64,000 nt of DNA from Branchiostoma floridae (taxonomy: Eukaryota; Chordata; Leptocardii; Amphioxiformes; Branchiostomatidae): assembly GCF_000003815.2 (NCBI RefSeq), contig NC_049984.1, positions 1,287,439 through 1,351,438 of the forward strand. The letters are read 5' to 3'. Both the position numbers and the translations under genes were made by a program. Within the stretch, counting starts at the first letter, position 1; each line of letters begins with the position of its first letter. Shown in pieces: positions 16,851 through 60,729 of this stretch. The notes beneath the pieces are model-generated. The model saw only the letters and a program-made list of their open reading frames with translations. It was not told the DNA's origin and searched no databases.

Positions 16851-19550
16851 ACTCTTACTGACCGCTTTATAATTATCATCTGTGTTGTAGACAACCAAGC
16901 TCTTATTCTTAATCTATAAACATTGGTCATTCCTTCTGTCTTTCTTCCTGAGGGCTGTTATGACTGCTTGTCCTAGGGAGGTTAGCAGAAGAGTTGCCTT
17001 TGCCTTGGTAGGTAGGAACAGGAACTTGTTTCAGGTACAAGAAAACTGAAATGTCATATGATCTGTGTATGATCTACCAACCTGATGAAACTGTCCATGG
17101 TTGTTTGTAGTATGGTTTGACTGTAGATCTACACTTAATGTAAATGTACTTTTCTAAACATTCTGCTATGCGACTCAGGCCATCTGGTGGGTACAGGTAT
17201 TTTGGCCGTTCTCCAAAAGTTGCACAACTGAAAATTTCAGGCAGCCCTTTCCTCTCAAGTTGTGGTCAAACCATACTACAAACGTTACCACATCGTATGT
17301 ATAGACTATTTATTTGCTGTTGATTTTCTACAACTGAGAATCAGGACCATATTTTTCCAACGTTTCAGTCATAGTCTGCTATTCTCCTTCGGTTGGTGAC
17401 TCGTGAAAATGTCACTGGTCTAATTTATTATGACATAGTTTCTATGGTAGGACCACAGAAGCTATGGCTTACAGTCTATCTCTAGGAAGTGGCAGACCAT
17501 GGCCTGTTATATAGGAGAGTATGCTCCTGATATTTGTCCTGTAGCAGTTATATGTTACTACTGAAGACTGGTATTGATACAGCCAGCCACTAACTGCATC
17601 ATGTTTCCATAAGTCTGTTGTTGTGTTCAACAACGTATCAAACTGTGTGGCAAAGGCCAATCTCATCGTATCTTTGTAGGAGTCTATCGAAAAACTACCC
17701 TTTTTTCACTTCAGATTTTTTGACTGGAAAGGCAATTTACATTATTGCAATAAAACCAAGCAAGAGAGGCCACATTTTGTAGCAGACCAAGCACGACGTG
17801 TCACTGGATAACACGATCCTTTGTACAAAACCAGGTAGTCTATTCAAGACCAGCATTTCGGTGACCATCTATCACCTTCCTCTGTTAACAACGACACCTT
17901 CTTGAAAATCCTAACAGGACTGGTCAGAATCGCTCTGAGGAATACAAAGCAGCAGATGGAGTGCTGCACATTGCATAGGATAGCTAGCCGACCACTATGT
18001 GCAACCATGTCATGATCGTGACTTCTTACTTCTCGTATAAATTGTGCAACCAACCAAACGTGCTGTCAAAGTTGCCTTCATGAAAGTTGTAATAAGATAT
18101 TGTTAAGTTGTACAAGAGTTCTGAGGCAGGCAAGACTGCACATTCAATCATAATCTTATTTGCTTAGTAACACAAAATAAGCCCATATTTGACATGATAT
18201 CTCAGGACTATATGTACAGTAGCAGTAAGTTTTCAGTTTTGTTAAAAAAAAATGTCATGATTTCGAATCATGAGAAAGAAAACCGAAAAAGGAAAGAGCA
18301 AAAGTGTAGAATCTGGAAAAGCTGTTTCCGATGAGAGGGGCTCATCTCAGGACTTCTGTAACGTTTCCTCACCAAAAATAGTTTGTTTATGTGCAGAAAA
18401 CTGACAAGGTGCAGTTATAGTGTAAGTGTTGAGTTATGTGAAAGCAGTCTTACATTAACCACCCCCCCATGGTGCTAACCACAGTTGATTTCTCACAGCT
18501 TGTTGGAAAACTTGTTGTATTTTTTTGTTGCTATCTTACGTTATATTTGTTGTTTTGACAGATTACCATAGAGGTATATTATATATTATGAATATTATAT
18601 ATCCGGTTCTGAGACAATAACTTGTTGAAGCAGATATGGAGCTGAGGCCGGGCACAACCAATTCTTTCACTGGTTCTCGGAATGTAGATAACAAAATTGA
18701 AACGCGAGACAAGTCCAATGACAGAATTATCACTGGAATTTCTACTAACGTACACTGCCACTTGCCACTATGATATAACGTTGTGCTAGACGTAGAGCCA
18801 CATTGGTCCATTCCTTTATTGAGAACCAGACATTAGAATTGGTGAAGCCTGCTAACAATAGGAGCTTTGTTAGATATAAGTCAGTATTACAACAGAAACC
18901 TTCTCTGTGCTTTCCAAGCGAAGTGTATTTCTGCAATAAGTTGTCGCATATCAGAGAAATATTGGTGATAATGTATGCAATGTGCCCAACAGAAAGCTGT
19001 TGATATGTTTGATTTTGTTCTAAGATTAACCATGTTATTGTCGTTCATGATTTTCATGTTAAACTTTCCTTATGTTGAGTGTCGGACATTTGAATGAGAA
19101 AGGTTCGTTATCGCTTTCTTGTTAACCATATATAACTATAAGAGCATTGCACGGTAACAATCACACGTCGTCCGATTATGCAGCCGTGTCAGTGGACTGG
19201 TTCAGATTCATACAGTCTGGTCTGACTCTGACTACCCATGTCAACATTTTGTAATTAAAACATCATTGCAATAATGCAAAGTCAGTTCTCAGGCCTGTTC
19301 TTGTTGAACATCATAAGTCTATGTGCACATGGACACAATGCGTAGCAATATTGTAGATGTATCGCTACAATGTTGCAATCTGCTGTTACCGCAGGTCAAA
19401 GTTGCAGGTTGTACTACATGGTGGCATAAATTTAGTATCGTGACGTAAGGCTGGCCAAGGGGTTTAGCAGAGCGTCATTCCAGCCACTGGCAAGTGACAC
19501 TTCTCTGCCGTCATAACAATACCTGGATATTGACAATATTCGGCACAGGA
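16851..19550. other. Intergenic / 3' untranslated region
   Basis: I see no gene here. An AATAAA at 17749-17754 could serve the F-box gene but is far from its stop. A foldback pair (tttgtagtatggtttgac and its complement) lies at 17101-17285. Confidence 0.5.
17101..17285. repeat. Inverted repeat, MITE-like
   Basis: Arms of about 20 bp at 17102-17121 and 17264-17284 are near-perfect inverted copies around a roughly 140-bp non-coding core. Confidence 0.5.
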
Positions 19551-19555
19551 CGGCC

Positions 19556-20005
19556 GTCACAAAACTACGAATCAGTTGCCATAAATTTCACATTGAAACC
19601 GGAAGACATAACCGCACTCCTCTAGAACAACGAATATGTAGATACTGCAATCTAGATAAGTTAGAAGACGAACATCATTTTGTAGTAGAATGTAGTTTGT
19701 ACAAGAAAGAGAGGGCTGAACTCTACAGACTAATAGAACCCATGTTCCCCCACTTCATACATCTAAGTAACTTAGACAAATTTATATTCCTTATGAATCT
19801 AGACAAACCTTTACTTATAAAGCATATCTGTTCTTACATTTTCAATATCACAAAGAAACGAGAAGAAGCCGATGTACGCAGTAGAATACGATTCTTGAGT
19901 AGTGTAGATTCATTGTATCATGTTGTATCGTTTGTTGTGACCTGTACTGAACCCAGTGGGTATGTATGTACAATAAAGGTCTTCATTCATTCATTCATAA
20001 CTCCT
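19556..20005 (+). mobile_element. 5'-truncated LINE, ORF2 C-terminus and 3' end
   Basis: An open frame reads HRIETGRHN-type residues (here HIETGRHN), then a Cys/His cluster, RICRYC then EDEHHF then C. This is the zinc-knuckle-like end common to many LINE reverse transcriptases. It continues to about 19.9 kb and is followed by an AATAAA-like signal and an (ATTC)n tail, the usual LINE 3' terminus. No reverse-transcriptase core is present, so it is a dead 3' fragment. Confidence 0.75.
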
Positions 20006-20228
20006 TGGACAGCTTTATGATGCTATTTTATGCCACCGAAGAATTTTCTTGGAGATAGCCACATGCTGTTTCTGGAATTAGGTTATTGCAAGGAGTAAAA
20101 GGGATCTTGATTCTTGTACATGAAATGTTGCTCCATATACAACAGGATTCACTCCAGGAATTGCAAGAAAATTTATTGTGCCACATTCGGGGCCATTCGG
20201 GTGGGAATTCCAAACGGACCTTATATCA

Positions 20229-22645: not shown

Positions 22646-25600
22646 CAATCCCCCGACGGACAGGGGTGCAACTTAGTCTCTACCAGACCCCATAGGTCGC
22701 TGGGAAAACCATAGAAAAAATAGAGGTAAGCTAGCCAAAGAAGTACAGCCGGCTAGGGAACAGCTTGTGGATCGGATAATGTTTTTACTGGCCGGCCGAC
22801 TCCTCTCGCGTACTCTTGACTCTATATTTGTCCAATTTCTACTATCAGTCCACCGAGCCTGGTAGAGGCTAGGTGCAACTGCGATCGAGGCACCAGCAGG
22901 CGCAGGCATGCGAAACAGGGCCATCACAACGATGGCCTCACGTTTGCATATTCTACCAATACCATGTTTGCGGCGCGTTGGTATCTGTATTCAAGCTACA
23001 ATGTATAGATTTACACGGTGTATGCACACCTGGCAATTATTTACTTTATGATATTTCAAAGACCTTTTCTGTAACAAGACCATAATATATAATCTTTTTC
23101 TTCTTCTGTTTAAATCTACACGTAAACCTTTTCAAGACGAAGTCTTTTAACATTTAAAGTCACTTCATTTCTATTCATTGTTTTAATTCCCCAAATCTGA
23201 ACATTTACGCCGTCGGCGAGAAATTCAATGACTACTAGTACATGTAGTACTTCAAGTGTAGTCCAGAAGTCTTGGGGAAATGTGAATACAATAAGTACTT
23301 AAATCAATATCGGAAAACCTCTGAGTTGATTGCCCAAATTAGAATAGATGTGGCGAAGATGAAGACAGGGTTATGTGTGAACCGCGGATTTTACGGCTCA
23401 GGTGCTTCTGGTCGGATTAAAACGCGGCATGTGCATGTGATAATCTCCCATCAGATTTATTTGTGGCATAAGCCGTCCAAAAGTGTTCATCAGCTACTGT
23501 TGGACACTGCTTGACCGACATTTGATACCGCCTTATGCCGCAGGTAAATCTAATGGGAGATTCGGCGTGTGCGCCGTGAGTGAGCATGCAATTATGAACC
23601 CTCTTACCATTGTTATGTATAAGCAACCACGTAGATATTAGTTTTGATTTCCTGTACATGTATTACACCCGAACTTGCCATACATTGTACCCGTACAATT
23701 GTTGCGCAATAAAGATTGATTTGATTTGATTTTGATTATCTCCCGTCAGATTTACCGGTGGCATAAGACGGTATCAAAATGCCGCCCTAAAAGTTTTCAT
23801 CAGCCACTGTTGGGCACTGTTGGGCACTGTATGGCTGGTCTTATGCCATCGGTAAATCTGATTTAATCTCCAAGCTGATCCTACGGTAGAATAAGACAGT
23901 ATCAAAAGCTGGCAGAGGAGTAAAGCCAGCCTAGGAGTGTGTTTCGCTACAAGGCAAATGGACACATTTTGGCTGACTACACTACTTGGCCAGTTTGGTA
24001 CACACCCATGCCATTGTAGGATCCTCTTGGAGATTAAATCTGACGGGAGATTCGGCGTGTGCGCCGTGAGTGCGCATTGCTTGTCTCCAGTGCAATCTCC
24101 CAGAGAACACGCTCACACCGTGCGCTGAATTCCCGGGCCTGGCGTCCGATCTTCTGCGGGGTACAGGTCATACGGCCGGGGGATTAACAGCGAAGTCAGA
24201 AATCTCTCATTTGCATAAACTGTCCTTGATATTCAACTGGTCCTTTGTGGTAGTTATTTACACAGGGAAGTGAAAATGGAAAATAGAAATAGAGGAAAAA
24301 GTGAATAACAACTTTGATGATCCGTGTCGATAGATAACTCATGATAACGTTAATGAGATTCCTACCGGCAGAGACCGACATGAAAGTGTTGCTCCAAGAA
24401 CAGGCGGGACCCGCGGCTGTATCCAGCTGAAGAGTTGATAACTCAAAGGATGCGTCGTTTTGGAACTTCTGGCAAAGCCTAATGAGAATCCACAGGGAAG
24501 CTTTTAAATCAATGGATGGCGGAAGATATCACAGATGATGAACAAACAAGGTAGGAAATAGAACAGTGGCTAGTGGGAAACCTCCTGCAACCGTTACAGA
24601 TAGCGTGTTGTGTCCATATGCACCCAGGGGTCTGGATCAACAGGTTTAAGGGTTCGAATTCAAGCCAACTGTCAATTTTTTTTTTAGTTTTAGAAACTGG
24701 TTAACCTGCAACTGGTATCAGTGCATCTCTGTATGAACTGGTGCACCTTGCAAGTCACTCCACAGTCTGTGGAGAAAAGCCAAACGGTCCGTAGTGATTA
24801 TCGGTACTTTAACCCGCTGTCAGCACACTACTACTGACCTTCATCAGCCAGAGTGCTTTTCTTTGAGTTCTTTTTAACTTCTTGCTAATCACAGAAGGCC
24901 ATTATTTAAAGCCGCAGGGTTGCAAACTAAGGCAGATGTCTGGACTGAAGGTGGGGATTAAATCAAAAGTATTTCGGCTAAAGGCCCGGGGCACTTGTGC
25001 GATCACAAAATGGCCTGCTGTGATTGGTAATGAGGAGTAGCCGATGATTCTGATCATTACTTTTCTCTCAGCTTTACATCCCGCAATTGTCGCCGGGTCC
25101 TTTTGTTGTACGACTTTTGATTCATTTTCCTTCGAGGCCAGACCACCCTACCAAATTCATTTTTTTTGTTTCTCTATTCTTTCTTCTGTTACGTTAAAAC
25201 ATGTGGGCAAATTTTCTTATATTGAGAATTTCAAGAATGGTTAAGAAAATAAATAGAAAGATTCCTTCCTTGAAATGTCTCATTCTCACCACAAGGACCA
25301 CTTTCTTAAGTTCTTTTTCTTAAAAAACGGAAGGTCTGTATCCGTGTATGTAAATGTTGTAGTATGTATTACTCATGACAACGCATCCAAGTAGCCCCCC
25401 CCCCCCATCCCAGTGTTTCTAGAGGTTTGTTACATCGCAGCGCGTGGATGTCGCGACATGTCCTTGGTACTGAAGTGTGACGATTTAGCGGAGGTACCTT
25501 TCTAGTTCTGATACGTGGCGTTTGCCAAAACACAACGCATACAAAAATGGTAGACATACAAACGAAGAAAAAACGTGGTGTATATCCTATCTGGTCAATC

Positions 25601-36283: not shown

Positions 36284-39200
36284 ATGGAGAAGATGAACAA
36301 CACAGCTGACGACTCCGGCAGCGGCACCGGTCATGACATACCCGACAACATGGACGCCACACAGACAGACCTGCCTCACATCCGTGACTCTCCTGACTCG
36401 ACAGCAGAACCGGTGGATCAACAGGATATCCATGGAGATGGTAGTCTGCACAGCCCAGATGTCCCGGTCCAAGAAGGCGGCGTCGACCAGAATGAAAATC
36501 AACCAGAAGTTATCGAACAGTCGCCAAACAAGGGCGATGGAAGCTCTGATCAGTACAAAGCACAGCCTGCCGATAACGTCCAAACCCAGCCCCCAGGTAT
36601 CCCGGTCAGCCCAGAGAAGCAGGAGGACATCCTACCCCGGCCCCACGGGATCCCGGCCAGTCCAGAAGAGCAGGAGGACATCCATCCCCGGTCCCACGGG
36701 ATCCCGGCCAGCCCAGAAAAGCAGGAGGACATCCTACCCCGGCCCCACGGGATCCCGGCCAGCCCAGAAAAGCAGGAGGACATCCTACCCCGGCCCCACG
36801 GGATCCCGGCCAGCCCGGAAGAGCAGGAGGACATCCATCCCCGGCCCCACGGGATCCCGGCCAGCCCAGATCAGGGGGACAGGCCAAACGACCCGTTACC
36901 GGGCGACAATAGTGGCGCCTCGACTGGATACTACCGGTCTCAAAACGACGACGAACGTTCGTCGCTACCGGATGTCTGCGCTTGTTATGTTAACCTTGGC
37001 AAAGTGGTACAAAATCAAAGCCTTTACGTTGAAGGGCCTGCAAAAGTTAACGGAGATGAACAGAATCAAGCACTCTATGCTGATAATTCATGTATGAAAT
37101 CTGAAGAATCCCCGTCAAAGGACATCTACGATATTGAAGGGTACAACACAGGTAACGTAGAGCAATATCAGCTAAAGACTGGTCGTTGTAAAGAAACATT
37201 ATCCCCTGCTTACCAAAGCGCTGTAGATGTCGATGATACCGGTACGGACATGCCAGTTGTCCACCAGGTCCATTATGTAAACAACCAAACAGAAGAACTC
37301 GACAAGAATGAAACCCGACCAAAGACACTCATCAAAGAATCGAAGAACGCTGAAATCTATCATATCAATAAATTCAAATCAGAGGTTAAATCAGCGGAAC
37401 AGAATCAAGCACTTTATGCTGATAATTCATGTATTAAACCTAAGGAATCCCCGCCAAGAGGCATCTACGATGTCGAAGGTTATAACGCAAATAACGAAGA
37501 CCAATACCAGCTGGAGGATGCCTGCCATAGGAAAGCATTAGCCGCTGCTTACCAAAGCGCTGGAGATGTCGATGATACCGGTACGGACAACCAAACAGAA
37601 GACCTCGACAAGGACGGAAATACACCAAAGACCATCGTCAAAGAATCGAAGGACGCTGAAATCTCTTATATCAATACATTTAAGTCAGGGAATGAAGGCA
37701 CTGCGGAAAGCCCAGACGTTCCGATCCATAACACAAACAACGGAGCAGAAGACACTGATCAGAGCCGACCAGAGACTGGCATCAAACAGTCGAATGGCGC
37801 TGAAAGCTGCGATCAGAACAAAGCAGAAAACACGGCCATGCCAGACGATGAGTGCATCCTTCCGTACGCAGCTGCTTAGCAACAGGATGGGAAAACAAAC
37901 GGCGAACAAGGCGTCCAACCGTACGCCGTCGCTTATGAAGAGCTGGAAGGACGTTATAAGAACCAAACACCGACCGGCTGCTCTGCCTACCATTCTGAGA
38001 GTGTCCCTGGACACCCAAACGCTATTTCTGGTGAGTCTGGTGGTCTTTTCACATTAACAACATAGCAGTTAGAATCAACTATAAATGAATTTGAAAAAAT
38101 CCATATAACGCCATGTTGGGTTGATTTGACAAATGAAAACCACACCAGTATGGCTAAAGTAAGGCTTATACAAAAATATTATACCCAGTTTCGTGGGTCC
38201 AGTTTGTCGTGAATAGAAGCGACAAAAGAAGAGAAACTGTACCAAGACAGATAAATCTTGTATACCTACCTTTTGCAGAGTCTGTTGATGGCAAGAAGAA
38301 CAGACTGCTTCCCAACCCCATGTACAGCGGGAACGCGCTACGCCCAAACCCCATGTACCGTGGCAACGCGCTACACCAAAACCCCATGTACGCCCCAAAT
38401 GCTGCACAACAAAGGGCGGGTGGAGGTAAGATGCAGTTCGGTTGGTATGGTTCTTCCACTTTTATATTTCACCCACATCACTTTTGGATCAGTCCATTTT
38501 GCATCGGGAGCTTTTGTGAAATGAGCTTTAGTTGCTTGCAAATGTTGCTTGTCTGATGTTACACTTACCTTGATGGTGTATTTTCCCCCTCTTTTACTCC
38601 TGCCTTGATTTCCAGGACACTGGTATGTCCTGATTCGATCCTGTCTGGCCCGTGTCATCCTTATAAGTGTGGTCGTGGTGACACTGACGGTTCTGACAGC
38701 TCTTATCATGGCAACCTTCATGTCAGGGCAGCGAGATGACCGCACACAAACGGCAAGTTGCACATTTTCACACCCCTGATACATATCGTGTATTCATTGT
38801 CTGAGATATTGAAAAACTGTCATTCATTGTGAACCTCTGAAGAATAGGAAATAATAATGTTTTCATTAGAGTATGGGAGGATTTGAGCACAAATTCGTTA
38901 GAACGTCACTGCTTCATTTGTGTTAGTAGGGGTTATTCTTTGTCCTTGTCTTTCTCAGACTTGGGCAGGCCCTACAGATGACGTCACCTGTAAAATGGGA
39001 GGTGCGGCAGGCACAACCCGACACGTGGACTACACGTCATCTCCACCAACAAGCACTGAAGGTATAATGAATACTTCTTAAAATACCATTAAAGAGAGGA
39101 GAGAACGCTAAGATTCTGTTGGGTGTGTTTAATAATAACCTCATACCATGTATCTGATGTCAGTGGATAAAAGAATATTTCTATTATCGAAAAAGAATAA

Positions 39201-40105
39201 ATGAAGTAAAACACAAGGGAAGCTGCTACCAACATGTATTCCTTTCCCCCCCAGGAATACAGAACAAAATCCTTGAACAAACAAAGATTGTCTTCGGTGA
39301 CGAAGAACCGGGCAAGCTTTCAGGACCAAATGCTGTAGACGTGTCGCCTAGCAACGAGGTATTTGTAGTTAATACCTTGAACAGGCGGGTCCAAGACTTC
39401 AGCATCACGGGCGCTTACCTCGGGCGGTTACCCAGCAGGGAAGGCTCAAAATGGGTAGAAATAATAGACATCGCCATCGACGGGGGGGGTCATCTGTGGC
39501 TGGTGGGGAACAGCAACTCCTCCAGGCCGTCAGGGTTTGTTACTCGGTCCACGAAGACAGGGCAGCCTACGAAGACAAAAGAGGTACTTCGTCCTTCCTT
39601 CCTCAACAACTCTTTCTACGGCATTGCCGTGAACACACTTCGCGATCACGTCATCGTAACAGAGCTTTGGTCTGGCTACTCAGAAGTCAAAGTTCTACAT
39701 TTTAACGGCAGCGTCGTTCGCAGGTTCAGGACTGAGCCGGGCCTGCAGTACCCCGGTCGGGTCGCTGTGGGGCGGGACGGAAACGTTTTTGTGTCCGACC
39801 ATTCATCAAAACAGCGCGTGTTTGCCTATAACGAAACCGGCCACTACCTGTTCGATTTCGGTGGTGATGATATCGGTGGTGGGCAGGAGATAGAAATCAC
39901 GGACATTTGTACGGACAGCTCAGGACACGTTCTGGTGAGTACCGGGCCAGGCGGGACGGTGGAGATGTTTACCCAGGACGGGCGGTACGTTCGCCGCGCC
40001 GCTACCGGCATGTTCCGGGCTGACGGTGTGGCAGTAGCACCGGGCGGACAGCTGGTGGTGACGAGTTATGAGAACAATACCGTCACCATATTCTCACACT
40101 ATTGA
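36284..40105 (+). pseudogene. TM-NHL receptor paralogue A (in-frame TAG in exon 1)
   Basis: Exons: 36284-38030, 38279-38425, 38616-38752, 38959-39061, 39255-40105. All phases close (2985 nt, 994 codons if the TAG is read through). The N-terminal half is acidic, with six roughly 17-residue PRPHGIPASPEKQEDIL-like repeats (about residues 104-200), LYADNS and QYQL motifs; then three NPMY motifs; one transmembrane helix (VILISVVVVTLTVLTALIM); a stalk; and an NHL beta-propeller with sequons NNS, NGS, NET and NNT. I infer a type II membrane protein with an extracellular propeller. The TAG at 37877-37879 stands where B has TAT (AAAYQQ). The frame continues open after it to a good donor at 38031. So the copy is either a pseudogene, a null allele, a sequence error, or makes only a 531-aa soluble tail. 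The donor of exon 3 is GC (38753). Confidence 0.75.
36590..36890 (+). repeat. 51-bp coding minisatellite in gene A exon 1
   Basis: Six units coding a 17-residue Pro/Glu-rich motif (PRPHGIPASP then EKQEDIL or EEQEDIH). The same unit, as PPRPHGIPASPEEQEDI, is present six times in gene C at 47730-48000. Copy number differs by position in the array. Confidence 0.9.
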
Positions 40106-41419: not shown

Positions 41420-44400
41420 ATGGAGGCGATGAACAAGACAGCTGACGACTCCACCAGCGGCAGCGGTCATGGAAAACCCGACAACATGGACGCCAGAGAG
41501 ACAGACCTGCCTCACATCCGCGACTCTCCTGACTCTACAGCAGAGCCTATAGGTCATCAGGACATCCATGGAGATGTCGATGATGCCATTTTGAACAGCC
41601 CAGATGTCCAGGTCATTGATCATAACAACCAAAGCTCCGATCAAAGCCGACCAGAGACTATCATCAAACAGTCGAATGGCGCTGAAAGCTGCGATCAGAA
41701 CAAAGCAGAAAACACGGCCGTGCCAGATGATGGGTGCATCCGTCCGTACGCAGCTGCTTATCAACAGGATGGGGAAACAAACGGGGAGCAAGACGTCCAA
41801 CCGTACGCCGTCGCTTATAACGAACAGGAAGGACATTATGAGAACCAAACACCGACCGGCCGTTCTGCCAACAATCCCCAGAGCGAAAACAGAGCCGTAA
41901 TAAACGATGACTGTATCCGTCCGTATGCTGTCGGGTATCAGCGGGATGCCGAAACAAACGGTGACCAAGAAGATGTGTATGCCGCCCAACCGTACGCCGT
42001 CGCTTATGACGAACAGGAAGGACATTATGAGAACCAAACACCGACCGGCCGTTCTGCCAACAATCCCCAGAGCGAAAACAGAGCCGTAACAAACGATGAC
42101 TGTATCCGTCCGTATGCTGTCGGGTATCAGCGGGATGCCGAAACAAACGGTGAACAAGAAGATGTGGATGGCGTCCAACCGTACGCCGTCACTTATGAAG
42201 AGGAGGGTGGACATGATGAGAACCAAACACCGACCGACCGTTCTGCCATGGCCAACAATCCCCAAAGCGTCTGTGGAGAACCAAACAACGCCAGTTCTGG
42301 TGAGTTTAGTTTGTCACAGCAACAACATATGCCGTTTAGAAAATTCATATCAGCTTTTCATGGATTTAAAGGAAATTATTTGTTATAGAACAACGGTATC
42401 TTCACATGTTGAGGATTTGATCATAAGAGACTGTTTACCGGAGAAATGTTTGAACAACATTCTATTTGCCCATTTCATCAATACTGCACACAATAATGTT
42501 GGTCAAGGCTCATATCCAGGGTCGTCGGTGTAGTGTTTTTAGGAAATAGAAGCGACAAGAAAAGAGAGGCCATTAAATCTTGTATTCCTGTCCATATGTA
42601 GAGTCTGTCGATGGCAAGACGGACAGTCTACTTCCCAACCCCATCTACAGCGGAAACGTGCCACGGCCAAACCCCATGCACGCCCCAAATGTTGCACAAC
42701 CAGGGGCGGGTGAAGGTAGGACGTAGTTTCGTAGATTACATCTGCATCAAACTGAGTTTGATAAACTATATTCTTCTCTACGCTGTTAAACTTGCCTTTG
42801 ATGTTTACTTGTAATTTAGACTTTTTTTTACTTCTTCCTTTTTTTATTATTCATAGATGTAAAGCAGATCCTGCTTATAGAGGTCTTCTCCTCATGTACT
42901 TCTTTCTTGTTTTCCAGGGCACTGGTATGTCCTGACTCGAACTTGCCTGGCCCGTGTCATCCTTATAAGTGTGGTCGTGGTGACACTGACGGTTCTGACA
43001 GCTCTTATCATGGCAACCTTCATGTCAGGGCAGCGAGATGACCGCACACAAACGGCAAGTTGCGCATCTTCACACACCCCTGATACATACATGTACCGTG
43101 TACGCATTGTCTGAGATATCAAAATACTGTCATTGCTTGAGACCCTCTGATGAATAAGAAATGATATTTTTTCCTTAGAATATGAGGGAAGTTTTGCACA
43201 AGTCTATACATATATGATAGAACATCGTTACGTAAAAGTTAACCTGTGTTAGTGTGGAAGTCTTTCTGAACAAAATAAGTTGAACTTACCATATTTTTCA
43301 AATGATCGACTCCAAGCTTTGTTAAGGAATGTCACAGAAGCAGTGGACTGTGCAATTCTTTGACAAAGACTGGATTCGATTAGTTGAATAATAGTTTAAT
43401 TTTATTCAGATTACCGTGTATTCAGATTACTTGGATGCATGTTGTTTTTCTAATGACTTCTTCTTTGTGTTCCTCAGACATGGACAGGTCCTACTGTAAC
43501 AGGTACTAAGGATGTTGTGTTTTATATCATGCCTACATTTTGTACTGTTTAATAGTTGCTGCCAGACATTGTACCATGTACAATTGTTGGACAAAGATTG
43601 AAGTTCTTTTTCTTTGAGGTAAAACTACAGATGACGTAACCAGTGAAACAGAAAGTGCAGCAGGCACAACCCGACAAGTGGACTACACAACTTCTCCTCC
43701 AGCCAGCACTGAAGGTAATACTTCATGAGTACTAGTGACCTTAAATACAGGAGACATTGTCCAAATTCTGTAAGATGTGTAACATAAGAAACAAGGTTAT
43801 ATTTTAGCTGATGCCAGTATATAAAAGTACAGATTACCTAAAAGAACAAAACTCAATGGCAAATGTTATCAACATATATTGCCTGTTTTCGCCCAGGAAA
43901 ACAAAACAAAGACCTTGAACAAACGAAGATTGTCTTCGGTGAGGAAGAACCGGGCAAGCTTTCAGTACCAAAGGCTGTAGTCGTGTCGCCTAGCGACGAG
44001 ATCTTTGTACTTGATACCTTGAACAGGCGAGTCCAAGTCTTCAGCATGACGGGGGTTTACCTCTACAGTTTGCTGAACGATAAAGTACCAAAATCGGCAA
44101 TACTAATGGACATCGCCATCGACGGGAAGGGTCACCTGTGGCTGATGGGAAACCGCTTCCCCTCCAGGCCGTCAGGGTTTGTCATTCGGTTCACGAAGAA
44201 AGAAAAGAAAGAACAGGTTTTGTTAGCACTTAATCCTTCCTCCCTCAACAACTCTTTCTACGGCATTGCCGTGGACACACTTCGCGATCACGTCATCGTG
44301 ACAGAGCTTTGGTCTGGCTACTCGGAAGTCAAAGTTCTGCATTTTAACGGCAGCGTCGTTCGCAGGTTCAGGACTGAGCCGGGCCTGCAGTACCCCGGTC

Positions 44401-44747
44401 GGGTCGCTGTGGGGCGGGACGGAAACGTTTTTGTGTCCGACCATTCATCAAAACAGCGCGTGTTTGCCTATAACGAAACCGGCCACTACCTGTTCGATTT
44501 CGGTGGTGATGATATCGGTGGTGGGCAGGAGATAGAAATCACGGACATCTGTACGGACAGTTCGGGACACGTTCTGGTGGGGACCGGGCCAGGCGGGACG
44601 GTGGAGATGTTTACCCAGGACGGGCGGTACGTTCGCCGCGCCGCTACCGGCATGTTCCGGGCTGACGGTGTGGCAGTAGCACCGGGCGGACAGCTGGTGG
44701 TGACGAGTTATGAGAACAATACCGTCACCGTGTTCTCACACTATTGA
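41420..44747 (+). CDS. TM-NHL receptor paralogue B (intact, 700 aa)
   Basis: Exons: 41420-42299, 42602-42715, 42918-43054, 43478-43502, 43619-43714, 43897-44747 (2103 nt, open throughout). Domains in order: an acidic tyrosine-rich tail (about residues 1-293) with three 63-residue repeats, each having PYAVGYQ, PYAVAYDEQ and HYENQ (the last copy HDENQ); an NPIY/NPMH exon; one transmembrane helix about residue 345 with Arg on its N side; a Thr/Ser/Pro stalk; and the NHL propeller to the C-terminus (repeats of the VFGEEEPGKLSVP..VFVLDTLNRRVQVF type). There is no signal peptide, and sequons (NNS, NGS, NET, NNT) lie only C-terminal to the helix, so type II topology is inferred. HYENQ fits the pYxN Grb2-SH2 consensus and NPxY fits PTB or endocytic signals. 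Ligand unknown. It is the only intact copy. The stalk exon is split by a LINE-derived intron, and exon 3 uses a GC donor (43055). B and A are nearly identical over the second half of the propeller exon. Confidence 0.85.
41740..42290 (+). repeat. 189-bp coding tandem repeat in gene B exon 1
   Basis: Nearly identical units each code RPYAVGYQRDAETNGDQED, then QPYAVAYDEQEGHYENQTPT, then GRSANNPQSENRAV. A first, diverged unit and two to three close units are present. Related single or double units occur in A (after the TAG), C and D. Confidence 0.9.
43503..43618 (+). mobile_element. 116-bp LINE-tail insertion acting as an intron in gene B
   Basis: The stalk exon, continuous in C (aca|ggt|aaa), is interrupted in B by 116 bp. 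The pentamer aggta is present on both sides (43501-43505 and 43617-43621). Removing GT..AG from 43503 to 43618 restores G-K-T-T-D-D exactly. The interior resembles the LINE tail at 23640-23740 (cattgtaccatgtacaattg, then acaaagattga). Confidence 0.8.
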
Positions 44748-47465: not shown

Positions 47466-50400
47466 ATGGATGCAACCTTCCAGACAGCTGACGATTCCAC
47501 CAGCAGCACCGGCAACAAAATACCGGACAACATGGAGGCCACACAGACAGACCTGCCTCATATCCGTGATTCTCCTGAATCTACAGCAGAGCCTGTGGGT
47601 CAACAGGACAAAGATGGTGCAAGTGTAGACAGCCCAGATGTCCAGGTTCGTGATGTAAACAACCAAGGAGACGTCAACCAGAATGGATCTCGACCAGAAA
47701 CTGCCATTAAACGGCCTGGGGAGCCTGTAGATCAACAAAACATCCCACCCCGGCCCAACGGGATCCTGGCCAGTCCAGAAGAGCAGGAGTACATCCCGCC
47801 CCGACTCCACGGGGTCCTGGCCAGTCCAGAAGAGCAGAAGGACATCCCACCCCGGCCCCACGGGATCCCGGCCAGCCCAGAAGAGCAAGAGGGCATCCCA
47901 CCCCGGCCCCACGGGATCCCGGCAAGCCCAGAAGAGCAGGAGGACATCCCACCCCGGCCCCACGGGATCCCGGCCAGCCCAGAAGAGCGAGAGGACATCC
48001 CACCGACCATGCGGAACACCCTCTGCAGGACGGCCACAGCAACGCTTCGGCTGAACACTCTGACCAGAATAATGGAGATTTTTGCAGGTCTGACAACGGC
48101 GCAGGACGTTCCTCGCTACCGTCTATCTGCACTTCCTACACACAAATCGGCAAAGGTGAAGAGAATCAAGCTCTTTAAACTGAAAGGCGATCTCGACCCA
48201 CAATGTGCACTTCATATACACACGTTAGCCACGCTGAACAGAGTCAAACACTCTACGTTGACAGCCCTGTTATAGAAACAGAAGAATCCCCGTCCAAAGA
48301 CATTTACAAAACTGACATTTGTAATGCAGATAACGAAGTGCAATACCAGCTGAAGGATAACCGCCGTGAAACATCAGCTGCTTACCAATGCGGCGGAGAT
48401 GTCGATGATGCCAGTGTGGACAGGACAGATATCGAAGTCCAAAATGCAAATAACGAAGCAGAAGTCCAGGCTGGAGCTGGACCAGAGTCTCCCATTGAAC
48501 AGTCAAAGGACGCTAAAAGCTCTGATCAGAAGAAAACAGAAACCACAGCCGCACCAGACGATGAGTGGATCCGTCCGTACGCAGCTGCTTACCGCCGAGA
48601 TGGCAACACTGACGGCGAGCAAGAGGATGTCTCTGACATCCAACCATACGCCGTTGCTTATGATGAACAGGAAAGACATTATGAGAATCAAAATCCGACT
48701 CACGGTTCTGTCAGCAATCCTCAGAGCATTCAGGATCAAGCAAACGCCACTTCTGGTAAGTTTAACGTAGCAAGTGAGTAGTTACTATTCGCTACGAACT
48801 ATTGTTTAGAAATTTCATAGAATCGTTCTAGAAAAAGATTAAAAAGTCTTCCATGAATAACTGGGACCCAGTAAAAGCGAGTTAGTACATCTTTGTAGGT
48901 TTTGCAGTTTTACTGTTTGGATATTTGCTTCTGGGAATGTACCTCACAATCATTTCCTGATGCTCGTTTGTATTGTCTGCTATTTCTAACAAGCTTAAGA
49001 CACTAAGAAATGTTGACTAAGAGAAGAATATATCTGGTTATGTCTGATGTGGTCATCCTAGACCTTTAGTTAATACCAAGGTTCATAAGTACAGTTTGTT
49101 CGGTAATGGGAGCGACAAGATAAAGGAATCGAATATCAAGACAGTAAACATGCATCTTGTACCTTCTGCAGATACTCTTGACCCCAAAGCGGACGGACTA
49201 CTTCCTAACCCCATGTACAGCAGCAACGCCTTACAACCCAACCCCATGTACAGCGGGAACGCGTTACGCCCAAACCCCATGTACAGCGGGAACGCGTTAC
49301 GCCCAAACCCCATGTACGCCCCCAATGGTGCACAGCCGATGGCAGATGGAGGTAAGGTGTAGTGCGATAAGTTAAGGTTGTTCTAATTTGCTACGTTTGC
49401 CTTTGTTACCTTCAAACGTTATGCTATTAAAAATGTTTTTGCTTTACTATTTTACAGGCCCTGTGTGTGTCTTTACTCAGTCCTGCCTGGCCTATGTCAT
49501 CACTACGGGCGTGATTGTGGCGACACTGACGGTTTTAACAGCTCTTATCATTGCGACCTTCATGTCAGGGGGGAAAGGCAGCTATATGGAAACGGTGAGT
49601 TTTGTTCTGAATTGTCCCGCTACATCAGTGGCAATTCAACAGCGACATTTTTACTTAAGACATTTTTGAAAGTTAATTATTCAAGAAAGGCATCTTCTAG
49701 TAGTGAATTCTAACATGATTCCCTTTTATTAAGGTTTTTTAACCGACGCTCTCATTTTCCCTCAAAATCAGACGTGGACTGTCCCCACCTTCACAGGTAA
49801 AACTACAGATGACGTCACCCGCGGGGACTACACGTCATCACCACAGCCGGACTACACGTCATCACAGCCCAGTACTGAAGGTGAGGCTCCGTTACCACCC
49901 GTTTATATAGGCTGGGCGGACACAGCCGTTTCACTCTGAAATGATTATGGACAGGGAATAAACATAGATACATGCACACTGTCTATTGAAATGTTATTTA
50001 CGAAGAGCTACCATGGAGTAATAGTCACCTGTCTGGTCGTTCAAACAACAACGTTGCCTAGCATCCACGATGTTACAGATTTTATCAAGAATAGCACAAT
50101 CATTTCACTCTGAAATGGTTATGGACAGGGAATAAACACATTGATACATGCACATAGTCTATTGAAACGTTATTTACGAAGAGCTATCAGGGACTAATCC
50201 ATTGTGTTTTGATACTGTTACCTGCCTGGGCATTCACACAACAACATTCCTTAGCATAATGTTACAGTTTTTATCAAGAATAGCACCGCTTAAAACAAAT
50301 TGATTAGAGCCTTTCAAGAGAAAGCTCAATCATTGCTTTTTGAACTCAAACAAAAATGCTGCAATGACAATGACTATTCTCCTCCATCTTCCTCAGTGGA

Positions 50401-51271
50401 CGAAAAGAAACCAACGACGATTATCTTCGGTGGAGAAGGCGAAGAGCCAGGCCAGTTTTCTGAACCAAGCGCCGTTGTCGTGTCGCCTAGCAACGAGATA
50501 TTTGTAACAGACACCTACAACAGGCGAGTTCAGGTCTTCAGCATGACGGGCGTTTATATCCGCCACTTTCCAACCGTCACTTCCGGAGAAGACTCCGAGA
50601 CCATGGAACCCGAATACATATCCATGGACGGGGAGGGTCACCTGTGGGTGATGGGGGATAATCACCATGAGACAGGGTTGATCGTTCGGTATACGAAAGT
50701 GGGGCATCACCTAGCAACGGTTCGTGCAACTCAAACCTTCAACAATTATGTCAGTGGCATCACGGTGGACGCACCCCGTAATCTTGTGGTAGTAACGGAG
50801 GTTTGGAATGGTTATGGGCAAACTATAAATATTACGCTTCTGCATTTCAACGGGACTGTCGTGCGCAAGTTCAGGGCGCAGCCGGGCCCGCAGTTCCCCG
50901 GACCGGTCGCTGTGGGGCGGGAGGGAAACTTTTTTGTGTCCGGGAACTGGGGAGATCCACGTGTGTATGTCTATAACAACACTGGTCACTACCTTTTCAC
51001 TTTTGGTAGTGACAAAATTGGTGAGGGTCAGGCAGAAAACGGTGAGATTCAGAGCGCTGTGGTCACTGACATCTGTACGGACAGTTCTGGACACGTTCTG
51101 GTGGGGACCGAGCCAGGCGGGGCGGTGGAGATGTTTACCCAGGACGGGCGGTACGTTCGCCGCGCCGCTACCGGCATGTTCGGAGCTGACGGTGTGGCAG
51201 TAGCACCGGGCGGACAGCTGGTGGTGACGAGTTATGATAACAATACCGTCACCGTGTTCTCACACTGTTGA
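47466..51271 (+). pseudogene. TM-NHL receptor paralogue C (exon 1 frameshift and TAA)
   Basis: Exon 1 is 47466-48755, followed by 49172-49351, 49458-49594, 49772-49880 and 50397-51271. The tail begins like A and B (TADDSTSSTGN, TDLPHIRDSP) and has six 17-residue PPRPHGIPASPEEQED repeats. After about 48000 homology to A (RSSLP, then SLYV in A) jumps to another frame, and in that frame TAA occurs at 48176-48178 where A has TAC. Downstream the frame is open again from an internal ATG at 48203. From there all exons close in phase (617 aa), so a shorter receptor could still be made. It has four NPMY motifs, the most of the four copies; a transmembrane helix (YVITTGVIVATLTVLTALIIATF); and a complete NHL propeller with sequons NIT, NGT, NNT. 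Exon 3 has an ordinary GT donor. The ATG at 47466 is chosen because the upstream in-frame codon at 47442 is GTG. Confidence 0.75.
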
Positions 51272-58460: not shown

Positions 58461-58954
58461 TTAGGGGTCCTATATTTACTTCTCTTGCCTGGAACATAAT
58501 GTATCTTATGTAATTTATTTCATAACATATATTTGGTATAGCCCATTTATGGTAGAATATTTTTAGACTATTTGGTATAGTCCATTATATCTATGCAAAG
58601 GCTATGTGGATCAAATCGTGTCTGCCTTTCTAGTTCTAAACGCCTTCGTTTTTTTGTCCCACCTCAGACATGGACAGATCCCACCTTCATAGGTAAAGCT
58701 GAATTTGTAACGGACTCAACCCGACATGTGGACTACACACCATCGACGTCACAAACCAATCCAGGAGGTAATACTTGTAGATAAGCCTAATCCTAAGCCT
58801 GACCCTTAACCCCTAACCTATAACCCTTACTCATGACTTTAACCCTAGCCCCTAGCCCGAATAACTGACCTCTAACTGTTGGAGGACGTGTGAAAAGTTA
58901 CGTATTCAGAGAGATTGGGTCAGAGAGTTGGTGATACGGTGGTACACTGCGAGA

Positions 58955-59370
58955 GGTCGAATCTAAAATTCCAGCAAGTCCAATTGTCTAGGAGACTGTC
59001 AGTGACAGTGATTCAATCAAAAAAATTCCAGCAAGTCCAATTGTCTAGAGACTGACTCAATTAGAAATTCCAGCAAGTCCAATTCTCCAGTAGACTGTCA
59101 GTGATTCAATCAGAAAATTCCAACAAGTCCAATGTGCAGAAGACTGTGAGAGATTCAATAAAAAATTCCAGCAAGTCAAATTGGCCAGAAGACAGAAATT
59201 AAATCAGAAATTCCAGCAAGTCCAATTGTCTGGAGACTGTGAAAGATTGAATAAAAATTCCAACAAGTCCAATTGTCTAGAAGACTGCGAGAGATTCAAT
59301 AAAAGAATTCCAGCAAGTCTAATTGTCTAGAAGACTGTGAAAGATTAAATCAAAAATTGTAGCAAGTCCA
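58955..59370 (+). repeat. About 48-bp minisatellite upstream of gene D's propeller exon
   Basis: Eight or nine diverged units with aattccagcaagtccaattg, then tctagaagactgtgagaga. Confidence 0.85.
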
Positions 59371-60729
59371 AATTTCTTTGAGTTGGAGACCTTCAAGCTC
59401 ACTCACACGAGTAGCTGGTTCGAGCATATTACAGGTGGGAAAATAAATATTTTCTCTTAACTAGGAAACATAACAAAAACACATGGGCAGGTGAGCATGA
59501 GCATTATTCTTATCCGTTGTCGACATTTAATCCTTGTTCTTCCACAGGAACAGAAAACGACAAATTTCAACAGACGAAGATCGTTGAACAGACGACGACT
59601 GTCTTCGGTGGATACGGTGAAGAGCCGGGCCAGCTTGACGGACCAACCGGTGTAGTCGTGTCGCCTAGCAACGAGATATTTGTAGCTGATACCATCAACG
59701 GGAGAGTCCAAGTCTTCAGCATGACGGGTGTGTACCTCCGCCATTTTCCCACCGTCGGTACGCTGGAACCTGAAGAGATTGCCATCGACGCGGAGGGTCA
59801 CCTGTGGGTGATGGGGGATAACCTCGATTCGCAAGGGTCGCTTATTGGTCGGTATACAAAAATGGGAGTTCACATCACAACTGTTTATCCTTCGCTCCTG
59901 AATAATACATTTCAAGGCATCGCCGTGGACACTCTTCGTAATTTGGTAGTAGTATCAGAGCTCTGGGATCATTATGGGGAAGTAAAGTTTCTCTCCCTTA
60001 ACGGCACTGTCGTGCAGACATTTAGAATGCAGCAGGGCTCGGTGTTCCCCGGACGGGTCGCTGTGGGGCGGGAGGGAAGCATTTTTGTGTCCGACCACAA
60101 AACAGAAAAATGCGCTTATGCCCTCAATGAAACACCGCTTCAGTTTCGGTGGCCATACGGATATAAACGGCGGCGACCAGATGATAAGGGTAACAGGACT
60201 GTGTACAGACGGGGCAGGAAACGTTCTCGTGGCCGACTGGTATGGCGGCATGGTTCATCTGTTTACAGAGGGCGGGCGGTACGTACGGCGCGTAGCTACC
60301 GGAGTGTTAGGCATAGAGAGTGTGGCTGTGGGACCGGGTGGGCAGCTGGTGGTGGCTAACCAGGAAAACAGTACCGTCACCATCTTCTCATATTATTGAT
60401 ATAGTATGCCGTTTTGGCTTTGTATATATATTTTTTTTCATATGGTGTTAGCCTCAGATCCAAAAGTAGTGACTGTATTTTCATGGTTCTGTCTCGACAC
60501 CATGGATTTAAGAGATGGTAGATGAATAGAGGTGGGGGAGGGGGGCGTAAAATTGTCGTGAACGTCGTCTGTGAAAAGTACAGTGTTTTGTGTAAAGTAC
60601 ACACTACTTCATTTAATGTTAGCTTCGGTTTTGGAAGTAGCCTCAAGTCTCTTGATTTGCGCCGCGCTACAACTTTTTTAGTCTTTCCAACAAAAGGTTG
60701 TTTAATGTCTAGAATCGCTATTCAGTCTG

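Follow-up and report, generated by a model that had tools for sequence, protein, structure and literature searches.

Doc is a retrotransposon of the LINE kind. Intron 3 of the Drosophila sechellia gene GM26034 is derived from the Doc1053 retrotransposon (PMC3296678), and insertion of a transposon into AGGT, with the duplication giving both splice sites, is a published model of intron gain (Yenerall and Zhou 2012, PMC3443670). The same 2012 review counts 35 transposon-derived intron events in four genera (PMC3443670). Introners, mobile elements that become introns, are described from many eukaryotes (Gozashti et al. 2022, PMC9860276). In some introner families the target duplication or the neighbouring exon furnishes all or part of both splice sites, and 59.2% of 130 families have TSDs, TIRs or both, the authors favouring a mostly DNA-based spread (PMC9860276). 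A review remarks in passing that intron gains in mammals, too, are believed to stem from transposon-made introns (PMC3899998). Among the open-licence papers listed for intron gain or insertion in amphioxus or Branchiostoma, none reports a LINE-derived lancelet intron by its title or start of abstract; papers on introns of lancelet GFP-like, globin and amylase genes exist.

The locus described here lies in a window of 64,000 nucleotides of Branchiostoma floridae (C6:1287439-1351438). The 116 extra bases in the stalk exon of its gene B (43503-43618) very probably form a spliceosomal intron that derives from the 3' end of a 5'-truncated APE-type LINE, inserted either in the common ancestor of A, B and E or in that of B and E. 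As in the AGGT model (PMC3443670), AGGT is duplicated on both sides, the donor AG|GT and the acceptor AG|G can be drawn from it, and the coding sequence is unchanged; unlike the model as set out there, the vehicle appears to be a 5'-truncated LINE tail, whose own pyrimidine-rich end would serve as the polypyrimidine tract, and the donor is possibly part LINE. Like intron 3 of GM26034 in its published account (PMC3296678), this is a retrotransposon turned intron with target duplications still visible. However, the second duplication of GM26034 is separated from the intron by 15 nt and the protein gained five residues, whereas in gene B the duplication falls on both splice sites and none is added (PMC3296678). 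The GM26034 intron is 98.4% identical to its source (PMC3296678) as against 75-87% here between the gene B insert and other scored copies, the present intron being more diverged, and unlike GM26034 intron 3 (PMC3296678) it is common to duplicated genes. Introners form multi-copy intron families (PMC9860276), whereas a single insertion event in one gene lineage is seen here. Short target duplications (∼5 bp) are also a feature of zebrafish ZfL2-1, the inserts of which are mostly 5'-truncated (PMC4245944); those inserts, however, were experimental, made in cultured cells and studied for their 5' junctions rather than for intron birth (PMC4245944).

Gene B lies on the forward strand, and its protein has a C-terminal NHL-repeat domain (Pfam PF01436). 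An exon at 42918..43054, delimited from the sequence and by tblastn against the paralogues, is predicted to be membrane-spanning from a hydrophobic stretch judged by eye; it ends in a complete codon, ACG, followed by a GC donor in phase 0. The whole stalk exon, insert included, reads from 43478 to 43714, is entered in phase 0 and left in phase 1, and its skipping as a whole would break the frame too. Its first piece (43478..43502, 25 nt, phase 0 to 1) ends in ...GTAACAG, as read by comparison with genes E, C, D, F, G and H, and its second piece (43619..43714) has 96 nt, phase 1 to 1. Between them lies the putative LINE-derived intron (43503..43618), 116 nt, GT...AG and phase 1, recognised from the genome search, the profile and the frame. 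The left copy of the target duplication, AGG(TA), occupies 43501..43505 and gives the donor G (43503), its TA possibly being LINE on comparison with gene E and the LINE copies. The right copy, AGGTA (43617..43621), gives the acceptor AG (43617-43618). The polypyrimidine tract TTCTTTTTCTTT (43604..43615) would come, by alignment with the LINE copies, from the pyrimidine-rich (GTTCTTCTTC-type) tail. The NHL-repeat exon (43897..44747) is open to its stop in the frame that requires removal of the intron.

When 43503-43618 is taken out, gene B reads ...T V T G K T T D D..., which aligns residue for residue with ...T F T G K T T D D... of gene C, and the insert-free codons ACA GGT AAA ACT are as in gene C. 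When the 116 nt are retained (116 = 2 mod 3), the frame shifts and then meets an in-frame TAA. The original prediction had described 116 extra bases with AGGTA on both sides, a GT donor and an AG acceptor at these positions, a reading frame restored by removal with unchanged junction residues, an uninterrupted stalk exon in gene C, and a likeness of the insert to a LINE 3' tail. The coordinates, bases and splice dinucleotides are as claimed, the alignment with gene C bears out the frame and the residues, gene C is indeed uninterrupted (gene D likewise), and the LINE likeness is confirmed by the genome search and profile given below. An Rfam scan of the whole 64,000-nt window gave no match.

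The genome searched comprised 513,431,437 bases in 431 contigs. The gene B insert matches 39 other places in it with E values of 3.1e-12 or better (40 scored of 431 candidates, the insert itself included), and its identity to the other copies among these 40 ranges from 75 to 87%. A LINE profile was built from 12 copies, a thirteenth (L031) being excluded as its anchor did not match. With nhmmer, the gene B intron scores 63.9 bits on this profile over intron positions 2-111 of 116 (43504..43613, profile positions 75-182, LINE 3' UTR and tail), and the gene E intron scores 38.1 bits over positions 2-140 of 159. Among 1000 first-order Markov shuffles, drawn equally from B and E (500 each), the highest score is 7.2 bits, so the LINE likeness of the gene B insert is not due to chance.

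The element behind this tail can be followed upstream. Copy L006 contains a frame with a cysteine-rich ending upstream of its tail, presumably of the kind found in LINE proteins. A genome search with the upstream piece of L006 gave 150 scored matches of 3460 candidates. In L034, one of the sequences found with it, a 1244-aa frame contains Exo_endo_phos and RVT_1 domains, and the 3' UTR after its stop is 68% identical to the gene B intron. The insert therefore corresponds to the 3' end of an element that encodes an endonuclease and a reverse transcriptase, as expected of a 5'-truncated LINE, and is evidently the 3' tail of an APE-type LINE common in the B. floridae genome. The LINE tail TTCTTTTTCTTTG abuts AGGT, so that the insert ends at the element's own 3' tail beside the target. 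The commonest form of the pyrimidine-rich tail among the copies is GTTCTTCTTC, and it varies from copy to copy. In 7 other LINE copies, the ends of which are poorly resolved, the search for target duplications gave only short or misplaced shared words, among them one of 9 bases in L005 that does not adjoin both ends.

Other LINE-like sequences were observed separately. Within the window, the sequence most similar to the insert, apart from the insert itself, is a LINE-like tail at 23668-23734 with a AATAAAGATTGATTTGATTTG ending. A C-terminal fragment at 19517-20017 resembles, by eye, a related LINE frame and has its own tail ending in CATT repeats; Pfam gave no match on this fragment. The tail of copy L008 (∼1590-1620) runs into CTAACTCAG|GTGAGT, like an acceptor followed by a donor.

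When the gene B exon was used as a genome query, 3 matches of 3 candidates were obtained, namely B, E and A. Gene E lies on the reverse strand at C6:1216913-1217226, about 70 kb before the window and outside it. It reads ...CCTACCGTAACAG|GTATCAAAG ... TTTTCTTTGAG|GTGAAACTACGG..., with a 159-nt intron at the same codon as in gene B; the site is thus shared by B and E. Removal of this intron restores the reading frame, and its retention brings in an in-frame TAG. The two introns end alike, in GAAGTTC(T/G)TTTTCTTTGAG, and this common tail suggests a single insertion before the split of the two genes. The LINE match starts at profile position 39 in the gene E intron as against 75 in that of gene B, which indicates that gene E keeps about 36 nt of LINE lost from gene B. 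The left junction of gene B, GTA|CTAAGG, is most readily explained by a deletion through TA that came later, and the 5' LINE boundary now seen in gene B looks to have been shortened by that deletion. B and E have each retained the two splice boundaries, though the intron interiors have lost or gained stretches of different length. In the intron that precedes the stalk, about 200 nt (43205-43450) are common to B and E and missing from A, representing either an insertion in B/E or a deletion in A.

The transmembrane exon as a genome query gave 8 matches of 11 candidates, which are the paralogues A-H; A, B, C, D and E are on C6, F on C4, and G and H on C9. The stalk exon is uninterrupted in all five paralogues outside A/B/E (C, D, F, G and H). 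On the forward strand, the empty site reads ...TTCACAGGTAAAACT... in gene C (49772..49880) and ...TTCATAGGTAAAGCT... in gene D (58668..58767). AGGT is kept at the site in C and D, and the corresponding bases are AGTA in F, TGGT in G and AGCT in H. Relative to the empty sites in C and D, a stretch of AGG to AGGTA is duplicated in gene B, a short duplication some bases of which could equally be LINE. The stalk exon of gene A (38959..39061, forward strand) lacks 18 coding nt spanning the site, between CTAC repeats (in-frame deletion), and gene A therefore informs on neither presence nor absence of the intron.

Genes A, B and E are split from the other paralogues with a UFBoot of 100 and a FastTree support of 0.998 (1.000 on the full alignment), D being the nearest. 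The A+B grouping is weak (UFBoot 69; FastTree 0.817 and 0.846), and the three-way site counts (109 BE-only, 86 AB-only and 80 AE-only) lean slightly to B+E. The intron was evidently gained once, in the ancestor of A/B/E or of B/E. As the branching within A, B and E is not settled, either ancestor is possible, and gene A may or may not have had the intron. A gain specific to gene B was ruled out, gene E carrying the same intron. The earlier view of a recent gain in gene B thus had to be given up in favour of a gain that predates the B/E split, the LINE remnant in gene E being the longer one. An ancestral intron in A, C and D had been named as one finding that would overturn the proposal: C and D are without it, and in A the site itself is missing.

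The present sequences suggest the following course of events. The ancestral exon, taken to be like that of gene C, ACAGGTAAAAC, would have offered a proto-splice site. Target-primed reverse transcription would have put a LINE tail of ∼150 nt into ACAGG|TAAAAC of the stalk exon; the 5'-truncated tail would have entered sense-wise after AGG, with duplication of 3-5 bp (AGG to AGGTA). The left copy and the first LINE base(s) would together make the donor CAG|GTA, in which the G is exonic and the T (and A) is either LINE or duplicated target. The right copy, AG|GTA, would provide the acceptor, and the pyrimidine-rich tail of the LINE the polypyrimidine tract TTCTTTTTCTTT. The splice signals coming from the duplication and the LINE tail, the insert would have been spliceable at birth without addition of a residue. 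The proposal that the duplication supplies both splice sites holds for the acceptor AG and the donor G, and for the donor T only possibly, the left TA perhaps being LINE by comparison with gene E. After the gene duplication, gene B would have lost ∼36 nt of the 5' part of the LINE, apparently via TA microhomology that kept the donor, and gene E would have gained and lost other stretches. Gene A may have lost the site by in-frame deletion, or may have lost 18 coding nt without ever having had the intron. That the tail came in by retrotransposition, how long exactly the duplication was and in which order gene A changed are all inferences.

We infer that 43503-43618 is removed from the transcript as a GT-AG intron. 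The new donor pairs with U1 at -7.1 kcal/mol in B and -7.2 kcal/mol in E; the 17 other family donors listed range from -4.1 to -10.1 kcal/mol, and of up to 1500 GT sites taken from the window about 3% reach this strength. Pyrimidines make up 12 of the 15 bases before the acceptor triplet of gene B. Counting against splicing, a second GT, at the right-hand copy (43619), has a strength like that of the gene B donor (-6.9 kcal/mol), donor positions +4 to +6 (CTA in B and TCA in E) depart from the consensus, and the acceptor triplet is GAG. The deviation of the donor at +4 to +6 lends something to an explanation that we consider unlikely, in which the LINE fragment disrupts the exon and is un- or rarely spliced, B and E making truncated membrane-anchored stubs or being pseudogenes-to-be.

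The sequence downstream of the intron bears on this explanation from both sides. The open frames, 948 nt in B and 939 nt in E, differ at 98 nucleotides and by 2 whole-codon indels and contain no stop, as against 13 indels within 423 nt of the intron before, of which 8 have a length not divisible by 3. Such frames, and the splice boundaries that both genes keep despite interior length change, argue against a disrupted exon. On the other hand, the absence of a stop taken alone is non-significant (P = 0.067 under random substitution), and the dN/dS of the NHL exon is near 0.9 for B-E (0.889; 0.836 for A-B and 0.537 for A-E), as would suit genes on their way to decay. With values as high as these, dN/dS was found unconvincing as proof of coding constraint. 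The NHL exons of A (39284-40105), B (43926-44747) and E have a nearly identical 3' half and a diverged 5' half, and the NHL exon of gene C (50420-51271) joins this near-identity near the 3' end. The near-identity of the 3' half is read as gene conversion, a reading that weakens the open-frame argument for splicing.

As to the origin of the extra bases, a tandem duplication of an AGGT-containing exon segment, or break repair with filler DNA, is very unlikely. The AGGTA flanks fit either route, the duplication is short, and a filler might conceivably have been copied from a LINE; however, the interior is a LINE 3' end rather than copied exon, and the sense orientation, the 5' truncation and the end at the LINE's own 3' tail are the outcome of LINE insertion. 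Duplications of ∼5 bp in zebrafish ZfL2-1, and microhomology at the 5' end of 5'-truncated LINEs, as reported for that system (PMC4245944), also speak for insertion. An intron older than the family, which C, D, F, G and H would have lost and which the LINE would have entered later in A/B/E, is scarcely credible and was rejected on the five empty sites and the LINE covering nearly the whole intron: precise intron loss is possible and the comparison is limited to paralogues of one species, but several exact losses would be needed (5/5 paralogues outside A/B/E lack the intron), and by profile the LINE takes up positions 2-111 of the 116 in B and 2-140 of the 159 in E, so that at most a little other sequence remains at the ends.

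The LINE tail turned intron thus appears to be a well-supported single case of a known mechanism, older than first thought. Intron births in which the source, the empty site and the origin of the splice sites can all be read are few. In genes B and E, a LINE tail would have become an intron without protein change and would have been inherited through gene duplication while its interior shrank or grew; gene A may show how an intron site can later be deleted. The case offers a testable rule for finding more introns of this origin, namely a sense LINE tail, an AGGT target and a pyrimidine-rich tail. It is rather doubtful that this LINE family is a habitual intron maker, any short sense copy in an exonic AGGT being spliced at once through its pyrimidine tail and the 3-5 bp duplications. 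If that were true, lancelet genomes would hold many such introns, a LINE-based, RNA-copied kind of introner.

Some further features of the family were noted. In A (38753), B (43055), D (58123) and E, the intron that follows the transmembrane exon begins with GC (ACG|GCAAGT), and in C, F, G and H with GT; the GC start is evidently a shared switch to a GC-AG intron. The NHL exon of gene D changes frame from 60134-60139 (two tblastn pieces), which is either a real frameshift or an assembly error, and an intron of the same gene contains an imperfect tandem array of ∼50 bp units (58965-59377). The first exons of A, B and C carry tandem repeats of codon-multiple length at 36584-36870, 41797-42248 and 47740-48004, respectively, with units of 51 bp in A and C and 189 bp in B.
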